DNA from: Marmoricola sp. Leaf446
GTDB taxonomy: Bacteria > Actinomycetota > Actinomycetes > Propionibacteriales > Nocardioidaceae
Assembly (NCBI RefSeq): GCF_001424755.1
Contig: NZ_LMRF01000006.1
Coordinates: 413,862 to 477,861 of the forward strand
DNA length: 64,000 nt
Direction: 5' to 3'
This document shows, one piece after another, positions 44,370-48,158 of this stretch. How positions within the stretch are numbered: position 1 is the first letter of the stretch; the number at the start of each line of letters is the position of its first letter. A program made the position numbers and the translations under genes. The notes under the pieces are model-generated. The model was not told the origin of the DNA. It saw only the letters and a program-made list of their open reading frames with translations, and made no database searches.

Positions 44370-46847
<2,478 letters not shown>

Positions 46848-46895
46848 CTGGGGGCTCCTCCTGGGCGGGAACGGGCGGGGACGGTCGGGACATGG

Positions 46896-46918
46896 AAAAG
46901 CCCCTCGCGCAGAGGGGC
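46896..46918 (-). terminator. Intrinsic terminator in the leuS leader (attenuator)
   Basis: On the minus strand GCCCCTC (46918-46912), a 5-base loop and GAGGGGC (46906-46900) are followed at once by TTTT (46899-46896). This is a textbook rho-independent terminator, but it lies about 50 bases upstream of leuS on the same strand and downstream of the leader peptide. No other minus-strand gene ends here, so its purpose is most likely to abort leuS transcription. Confidence 0.75.
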
Positions 46919-46919
46919 G

Positions 46920-46941
46920 GCCGCGTCGTGGTCGACGCGGC
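46920..46941 (-). promoter_or_regulatory. Leader hairpin immediately after the leuS leader peptide
   Basis: gccgcgtcg (46941-46933 on the minus strand) pairs exactly with cgacgcggc (46928-46920) around ACCA. Its first base is the G of the leader-peptide stop codon, so a ribosome at or near the stop would disturb it. It abuts the terminator arm, as expected for a ribosome-sensitive attenuator. Confidence 0.65.
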
Positions 46942-46967
46942 TAGGCGAGACGCAGGGAGGTGCTCAC
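46941..46967 (-). CDS. Putative leaderless leader peptide of leuS
   Basis: GTG at 46967 opens an 8-codon frame, V-S-T-S-L-R-L-A, ending TAG at 46941. TAGGAT (complement of 46974-46979) lies six bases upstream and fits a -10 whose transcript would begin at the GTG. Two of eight codons are leucine (CTG, CTC). Placement before a hairpin and terminator upstream of leuS suggests translation-coupled attenuation by charged tRNA-Leu. It is too short for a homology argument; the evidence is positional. Confidence 0.6.
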   Translation of the reverse strand: MSTSLRLA

Positions 46968-47048
46968 CGCTCCATCCTAGACCCTGCCCGGCGCAGGCGG
47001 CCGCTCGCTCCCGGAGCCGCCTTCGGGCGGGGTCGTACCGTGAGGCGC

Positions 47049-48158
47049 ATGGGTCCTGCGGCGCGCTGGCTGGTGGTGCTCGCCGTGGCCGTGGCCCTCG
47101 TGGCGGTGCCCCAGGGCCTGCGCGCCCTCCCCGTGGCCGACACCGAGGAGAGCGCCGCCGACCTGGCCGCGCGCGTGCTCGACGCCGACCGTCTCGGCTG
47201 GTCCGGCGAGGTCGCCACCCAGGGTGACGTCGAGGTCCCGCTCAGCGGCGACACCTTCGGCGGCGTGGTGCGGATCCTCGGCGAGTCCAGCCGGCTGCGG
47301 GTGTGGTGGCGCGGGCCCACCGAGCACCGTGTCGACCGGGTCCGCGAGAGCGGCGAGACCGACGTGGTGCGCAACGGTGGCATGACGATCCGGTGGCGCT
47401 ACGAGGGCAACCGGGTCAGCTTCGTGCCGTACTCCCGGATCCGGCTGCCCGACGACCCCGACGTCGTCCCCGTCGCGCTGGCGCAGCGGCTGTTCACGGG
47501 CGCCCGACCCGCGGAGCTGTCCCGGCTGCCGTCCGAGCGCGTCGCCGGTCGCGCCGCCGCCGGTCTGCGGCTGGTGCCCGCCGACCCCCGCTCCACCATC
47601 GGCCGCGTCGACCTGTGGGCCGACCAGGAGACCGGGCTCCCGCTCCGCGTCGAGGTGTACGACGGAGCAGCCGGCTCGCGCCCCGTGCTGACCACCGAGA
47701 CCACCTCGGTCGACCTCGACCGCCCGGCCCGGTCCGCGACCCGGCTCGACATCTCCTCCGGCGTGGACTTCTCCCGCGGCGTGACGCTCGACGACGCGGC
47801 GGGCGCCGACGCCTACGCGCCGTTCGCCCCGCCCGACGAGGTGGCCGGGCTCCCCCGCCGCGGCGACCCCGAGGACTTCGGCGCGGTCGGCGTCTACGGC
47901 CGCGGGCCGACTGCCCTGGTCGCGGTGCCGCTGCGCGACGTGGTCGCCCGGGGGCTGCGCGAGCAGCTGCGCAAGGCCGGCACCGTCCGGGACACCGGCG
48001 AGCGGCAGGCGCTGGAGTTCGGGCCGCTCTCGGTGCTGCTCGACAGCAGCGGCCGCGGCAACTACGTGCTGCTCGGCACGGTCACCCCGGAGACCCTCGA
48101 GCAGGCCGCCGACGACGTGCGGGCCGGCGTACGCCTCGTGGACCCGGTGGGCCGATGA
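47049..48158 (+). CDS. LolA/MucB(RseB)-like exported protein
   Basis: A 369-residue protein with a signal anchor at residues 7-25 (WLVVLAVAVALVAVP). The mature part starts SAADLAARVLDADRLGWSGEVATQGDVEVP and continues with strands such as RLRVWWRGPTEHRVDRV and IRWRYEGNRVSFVPYS, the half-barrel pattern of LolA/RseB proteins that hold lipids or lipoprotein. TACCGT at 47036-47041, seven bases before the ATG, suggests leaderless initiation. It is coupled by overlap to an ABC transporter, so it may be the transporter's extracytoplasmic partner. Confidence 0.72.
   Translation: MGPAARWLVVLAVAVALVAVPQGLRALPVADTEESAADLAARVLDADRLGWSGEVATQGDVEVPLSGDTFGGVVRILGESSRLRVWWRGPTEHRVDRVRESGETDVVRNGGMTIRWRYEGNRVSFVPYSRIRLPDDPDVVPVALAQRLFTGARPAELSRLPSERVAGRAAAGLRLVPADPRSTIGRVDLWADQETGLPLRVEVYDGAAGSRPVLTTETTSVDLDRPARSATRLDISSGVDFSRGVTLDDAAGADAYAPFAPPDEVAGLPRRGDPEDFGAVGVYGRGPTALVAVPLRDVVARGLREQLRKAGTVRDTGERQALEFGPLSVLLDSSGRGNYVLLGTVTPETLEQAADDVRAGVRLVDPVGR

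Follow-up and report, generated by a model that had tools for sequence, protein, structure and literature searches.

The leucine--tRNA ligase gene leuS of Marmoricola sp. Leaf446 is preceded by a compact array made up of a -10 hexamer, an apparently leaderless eight-codon open reading frame (ORF) with leucine codons, a hairpin (P1), and a terminator hairpin (P2) that directly adjoins it. Judged from its sequence and that of its relatives, this array is very probably a leucine-responsive, ribosome-controlled transcription attenuator. We give a probability of roughly 0.6 to the best explanation as a whole, namely that the array is a leucine attenuator of leuS and that P1, abutting P2, serves as the control. 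In the textbook form of attenuation, the two hairpins must have one strand in common. A conserved family with the leader codons and the terminator but no common strand would show another route by which a ribosome can act on termination, and the design, about 85 bases long, is open to base-by-base testing. The same module would also join leuS, cimA, and ilvB, here and in related genomes, into a single codon-sensed set. The parts of the element and its neighbor in the window (the whole 64,000-nucleotide stretch of DNA analyzed) are as follows.

46974 to 46979, minus strand: TAGGAT, putative -10 hexamer of the leader promoter (from the sequence; all 42 elements have a TA...T hexamer 6-7 nt ahead of the leader start).
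46941 to 46967, minus strand: leader ORF with a GTG start (46967-46965), VSTSLRLA, eight sense codons, and a TAG stop (frame and position conserved).
46953 to 46955, minus strand: CTG, Leu, codon 5, candidate control codon (at least two Leu codons in 42 of 42 elements).
46947 to 46949, minus strand: CTC, Leu, codon 7, candidate control codon (from the sequence and relatives).
46920 to 46941, minus strand: hairpin P1, nine pairs, its 5' end overlapping the stop codon by one base (from folding and from compensatory changes in alignment A1).
46900 to 46918, minus strand: terminator hairpin P2, seven pairs, one base past P1 (from folding and the terminator scan; CCCCTC/GAGGGG conserved).
46896 to 46899, minus strand: TTTT, U-run of the terminator (from the sequence and the terminator scan).
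46857 to 46862, minus strand: AGGAGG, leuS ribosome-binding site (from the sequence).
44370 to 46847, minus strand: leuS, leucine--tRNA ligase, 825 aa, the putatively regulated gene (NCBIfam TIGR00396 leuS_bact, 919 bits against a cutoff of 548).
47049 to 48158, plus strand: divergent gene with a weak MucB/RseB match (28.2 bits against a cutoff of 22.3).

Six bases separate TAGGAT (46979-46974) from the GTG, and the first-pass annotation had read this hexamer, the spacing, the start codon, and VSTSLRLA with its stop on the minus strand exactly to the base. The hairpin that it placed from the stop codon onward, as well as the second hairpin with TTTT behind it, were confirmed by folding and by the terminator scan, which picked up P2 (mean of 0.0 sites in 50 shuffles). 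Its distance of about 50 bases to the leuS ribosome-binding site was too long: 33 bases lie between the end of the U-run and AGGAGG, and 48 between the U-run and the leuS ATG. It was right that no gene ends here on the minus strand; the divergent gene upstream of the leader most likely starts at 47049 on the plus strand, with an ABC transporter ATPase gene behind it. The arms and loop of P1 read GCCGCGTCG-ACCA-CGACGCGGC, with the G of TAG in the first pair, and those of P2 read GCCCCTC-TGCGC-GAGGGGC. The P1 region of the window reaches a fold z score of -5.3, and 0 of 500 dinucleotide shuffles fold as well; the 77-nt fold taken as a whole is less striking (z of -2.6, with 5 of 200 shuffles equally good).

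The scan of the window leader returned no -35/-10 consensus promoter, the -10 alone being recognizable. From the sequence, we infer that the leader ORF is leaderless and that transcription starts at the GTG itself; in Streptomyces lividans, the mean distance from -10 to transcription start is given as 6.3 nt (PMC8079986). The window had no Rfam match at the gathering score, whether to the T-box or to other families, and seven element loci searched at E up to 1 gave a tRNA and two weak matches below their gathering scores and nothing else. One of these two weak matches, to ncS54 (21 bits against a cutoff of 43), overlapped the cimA element. With no fitting covariance-model match, identity with the T-box or another Rfam family was rejected. 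Codon 6 of the leader is CGT in the window and CTT (Leu) in the closest relative (L005), whose leader reads VSTSLLLA with CTG CTT CTC in place of CTG CGT CTC. By this comparison, the two Leu codons in the window are a local reduction in which Arg has replaced one Leu. As separate observations, a TGYGY-like sequence of the P2 loop (46911-46907) is retained by many leuS elements, although terminator loops need no conservation, and matches a pause motif in leuS only; directly after the U-run, at 46895-46880 and thus outside the terminator, many of L005-L053 keep a sequence like CATGTCAGGA or TGTGCCCGGG.

To place the element in its phylogenetic setting, 58 genomes including the source genome were searched, and the region upstream of leuS was read in 49 of them; one locus without upstream sequence (L030) and eight genomes in which leuS was unfetched or gave partial or distant matches had been left out. 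The -10 hexamer, the Leu-codon ORF, and the terminator were present in 42 of the 49 regions by the rule used, that is, a TA...T hexamer 6-7 nt before an ATG or GTG that opens a frame of 7-11 codons, two to four of them for Leu, with a terminator-like hairpin behind. CTG CTC CTT is the codon run seen most often (23/42 elements), and P1 ends 0-3 nt before P2 in all 42. The element is absent in seven (L010, L014, L023, L026, L027, L048, and L053); in L023, the start and some Leu codons remain before leuS while P1 and P2 are gone, which looks like a loss in progress. The reading of this stretch as an attenuator before leuS, proposed at first pass, is partly supported by an array kept in most relatives, the response to leucine itself being a prediction.

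A covariance model built from the leuS elements alone (R1) was used for wider scans. Among the best 80 named loci of a wider scan, R1 matches 45, and a search script finds the array in 44 of the same 80; the matches take in every record among the 80 that is titled Nocardioides, Marmoricola, Kribbella, or Actinomadura and a few others, and no element was found at the Nesterenkonia, Microbacterium, Cryobacterium, Agromyces, and Tessaracoccus loci listed among these 80. At the level of the class, R1 matches at E up to 0.1, counted at any location in the genome, were found in 179 of 296 genomes. In the source genome, leuS is the sole match below E of 1, and two matches at E of 2.1 and 4.4 were rejected as unlike the elements in appearance. 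Two diverged types of LeuS, about 60-85% versus about 38-45% identical to that of the window, were seen behind the same leader (L102, L105, L064, and L183), and one genome (G265) carries one LeuS of each type. One contig, with a leuS 62% identical to that of the window, is titled Stenotrophomonas maltophilia (JACEFY010000292.1, L264) and is perhaps mislabelled or contaminating.

Base changes in the two hairpins support their pairing. In alignment A1, which comprises 37 of the 42 leuS elements after removal of five near-duplicates, 97.6% of the cells of P1 and P2 together are paired, compared with 90.1% in shuffles and 40-60% when the alignment is slid, and 64 two-sided changes are found against 17.9 in shuffles. 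The first-pass annotation had proposed that aligned leaders should show conserved Leu codons and compensatory changes in both stems. The codons and the frame are indeed conserved, and two-sided compensatory changes occur in four of the nine P1 pairs; in P2, however, covariation is slight, with three pairs varying, mainly the outermost, and four of seven invariant. Conservation and covariation together led us to reject a chance origin of the leuS element. The median fold z score of P1 is -4.5 for leuS (range -7.1 to -0.9), -3.6 for cimA, and -3.0 for ilvB. For cimA, alignment A2 (24 sequences, L109 having been removed from 25) has 94.6% of cells paired versus 92.2% in shuffles and 14 two-sided cells versus 5.3, whereas further pair types (11 versus 12.1) do not exceed the shuffles, and 14 of the 24 sequences fail to form one inner P1 pair. 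This weak P1 covariation is attributed to the invariance of the base of P1. A control for abutting stems was too lax, as it was passed by 40/42 leuS, 24/25 cimA, and 10/10 ilvB elements and also by 42/72 other terminators, 37/72 shuffled upstream regions, and 336/840 shuffled leuS upstream regions; the argument is therefore based on the fold scores and spacing of P1 and on conservation.

How a ribosome on the leader would act on these hairpins was modeled by folding the leaders in four states: ribosome absent, and A site occupied by the first control codon, the last control codon, or the stop codon. The ribosome was mimicked by masking 12 nt from the A site, taken as the extent of its footprint. 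P2 forms in all four states, with a probability of at least 0.88 in 41 of 42 leuS elements and of 0.65-0.68 in the other (L046). Sequestration was measured as the paired fraction of the P2 5' arm when the transcript is folded before the P2 3' arm exists, a fraction of 0.5 or above counting as sequestered. In the stalled state, the equivalent arm of the Escherichia coli attenuators is paired to 0.83 (trp), 1.00 (thr), 0.78 (his), 0.75 (leu), and 0.88 (phe), so that all five controls are sequestered; hisL is sequestered in the stop state as well, which leaves a full switch in four of five. For the leuS elements, the mean paired fraction in the stalled state is 0.11 with 0/42 sequestered, and for 37 further class-wide leuS elements it is 0.16 with 0/37 sequestered. 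This further set came from 38 loci, one of which (L177) was not parsed; all 37 have a LeuS-like frame downstream, and three carry the Streptomyces leuL2 peptide. Sequestration was found in 1/25 cimA and 0/10 ilvB elements, the single cimA case probably being L109, in which the script misplaced P2.

Folding thus gave no antiterminator that takes the P2 5' arm on stalling in either leuS set, and an alternative antiterminator in the leuS leader was rejected under the four ribosome positions. The five E. coli attenuators share with the leuS elements a leader-peptide codon run and a terminator ahead of the gene, but their first hairpin, folded alone, overlaps the terminator by 5-9 nt of its 5' arm. 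The P1 of leuS, cimA, and ilvB elements, folded alone, ranges from a 3-nt overlap to a 3-nt gap with P2 (the misparsed L109 apart), and leuS P1 thus takes at most three bases. Of the trp-type features, the leuS elements have the control codons and the intrinsic terminator and lack the antiterminator. In these folding models, P1 and P2 abut but do not compete.

We propose that a ribosome would start on the 5' end of the transcript at the GTG and read the eight codons. When charged Leu-tRNA is plentiful, it would reach the stop codon and cover the P1 5' arm; with P1 blocked, P2 would close and transcription would end. When Leu-tRNA is uncharged, the ribosome would stall on the first Leu codon, P1 would be left free, and RNA polymerase would read into leuS, and more of the leucine-charging enzyme would probably be made when charged leucine tRNA is short. 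The masking model agrees with these positions, as the P1 5' arm is masked with a ribosome at the stop and accessible with one at the first Leu codon; a stall on the last Leu codon already covers part of P1, which weakens the contrast between stop and stall. Since only P1 depends on the position of the ribosome, P1 itself would have to control P2, and since leuS encodes a synthetase, for which readthrough should rise on starvation, P1 should hinder P2. An intact P1 lying 0-3 nt before P2 may do so by keeping the base of P2 from closing in the RNA exit channel, and for this steric hindrance we see the chances as evenly balanced. No direct precedent for steric hindrance of this sort emerged from a limited literature search.

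P1 might instead compete with P2 for base pairs where the two meet, on the pattern of the Corynebacterium glutamicum ilvBNC "fast attenuator": nucleotides shared by the end of P1 and the start of P2 would make the choice of readthrough or termination depend on a few pairs. In that system, the bases of the hairpins lie next to each other with a GCC trinucleotide in common, and mutating this region is reported to alter expression (PMC11857589). P1 folded alone does reach into P2 by 1-3 nt in 22/42 leuS elements, by 1-2 nt in 9/10 ilvB elements, and by two bases in the window. On the other hand, it shares no base with P2 in 20/42 leuS and 23/25 cimA elements, a three-base overlap occurs in 2/42 leuS elements, and both hairpins form when both are allowed in folding. 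We consider junction competition unlikely, though boundary pairing may play a part in the 22 leuS elements with overlap.

More improbable still is that P1 is a pause hairpin only, which would hold RNA polymerase for the ribosome while P2 ends a fixed share of transcripts, the effect of leucine arising from timing. Under the Y-G pause rule, a pause-like G-Y-G motif lies 10-12 nt past P1 in 28/42 leuS elements, compared with 5.2 in letter shuffles, but it is found at that place in 0/24 cimA and 0/10 ilvB elements, and because the leuS sequences are related, the excess may reflect inheritance. As the motif holds for leuS only, it was rejected as a general feature of the module; in leuS, a pause after P1 may add timing to hindrance by P1. 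Translational control, in which, on readthrough mRNA, the Leu codon run (CTCCTT) would pair with the leuS ribosome-binding site much as the LEU element pairs Leu codons with the leuA Shine-Dalgarno box (PMC1262725), is very improbable, as pairing at or above 0.5 is predicted in 12/42 elements but not in the other 30, the window value is 0.00, and P1 and P2 would be left unexplained.

The codons themselves change with the gene that follows. Of 20 stretches matched by R1, ten are followed by cimA (citramalate synthase) and have Ile codons in the leader, and four are followed by ilvB (acetolactate synthase) and have codons for Ile, Leu, or Val. Another two, with Leu codons, are followed by leuA and three by leuS, while L093 is too short to assign. 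Twelve further low-scoring matches comprise seven upstream of ilvB, four upstream of cimA, and one that a contig end truncates. Gene names behind these matches were read from the downstream frames, and NCBIfam agrees with those of the cimA and ilvB of the source genome and the leuA of L095, these being fragments whose scores fall short of the cutoffs for whole proteins (438.5 of 450 for cimA). The source-genome cimA and ilvB elements, with the leaders MQHGTRIIA and MRSDLLVRTRRVS, were missed by R1 and located via protein searches. Upstream of cimA in relatives, a start at the -10 distance with at least two Ile codons was found in 25 of 29 regions; L111, without upstream sequence, had been removed beforehand, and L115, L129, L131, and L132 lacked this arrangement. 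Upstream of ilvB, an Ile/Leu/Val leader was found in 10 of 30 regions, and the other 20 have the terminator and, by the rule used, no leader. The gap between P1 and P2 is 0-3 nt in 24/24 cimA and 10/10 ilvB elements folded (L109 being too short).

The match between control codons and gene pathway is the best evidence here that the codons would be the sensor. The first-pass annotation had left two alternatives, a ribosome stalled at a Leu codon or a response to general initiation; Ile codons before cimA and Ile/Leu/Val codons before ilvB fit the codon sensor, and general initiation fits less well. Against this, altering the supposed control codons in the sister leader of Streptomyces coelicolor ilvB is reported to have been without effect (PMC1262725). 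A wider possibility, which we advance tentatively and hold at somewhat less than even odds, is a modular attenuator of actinomycetes whose leaderless micro-ORF, made up of cognate codons, would control a terminator via an abutting hairpin and not via alternative pairing, with Leu codons for leuS, Ile for cimA, and Ile/Leu/Val for ilvB, bringing branched-chain amino acids and leucine charging into a single regulon.

Attenuators before leuS have been predicted in two Streptomyces (Seliverstov 2005, PMC1262725), and leuL2 of S. lividans TK24 is a leaderless leuS leader, MRAVRLLLSEPR, with a hairpin and U-run (PMC8079986). The idea that a leaderless version on leuS had gone unrecorded is therefore superseded. 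R1, built without them, finds three loci with the exact leuL2 peptide MRAVRLLLSEPR at E of about 1e-14. The Streptomyces attenuator and that of the window share the gene, the Leu run, the hairpin, and the terminator, the leaderless state being reported in S. lividans and inferred here. They differ in that the window leader has eight codons with its stop at the base of P1, whereas the Streptomyces leader has 12 with the stop further in, and in that the 2005 account describes antiterminator and terminator hairpins (PMC1262725), whereas the three loci with the leuL2 peptide have no antiterminator by the measure used here. The leuS element thus belongs to a kind already described, of which it is a shorter version, and the missing antiterminator and the cimA member seem to be what is new.

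Other actinobacterial leaders are similar in part. C. glutamicum ilvBNC, besides its adjoining hairpins, has a branched-chain leader peptide and a terminator, and its transcript begins one nucleotide from the leader start; it differs by an extra hairpin over the leader and by the shared trinucleotide (PMC11857589), such shared bases not being conserved in leuS and cimA. The Corynebacterium ilvB-II motif likewise combines a branched-chain leader peptide with a terminator but places an antiterminator between the P1 loop and P2 (PMC10272879). In Mycobacterium tuberculosis ilvB1NC, a short branched-chain uORF, a Rho-independent terminator, and a proposed stop-versus-stall logic resemble the present system, whereas the mutually exclusive terminator and anti-terminator and the 166-nt leader do not (PMC13236596). 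Our limited literature search, judged by title and abstract opening, found no report of a cimA leader and nothing on point for Nocardioides leaders, and the list of eight leader peptides in the S. lividans paper contains none for cimA; the same paper reports the S. lividans leuA leader as having no typical terminator (PMC8079986). In two genomes of one genus (L095 and L098), leuA stands behind the same leader as leuS, with Leu codons and the terminator.
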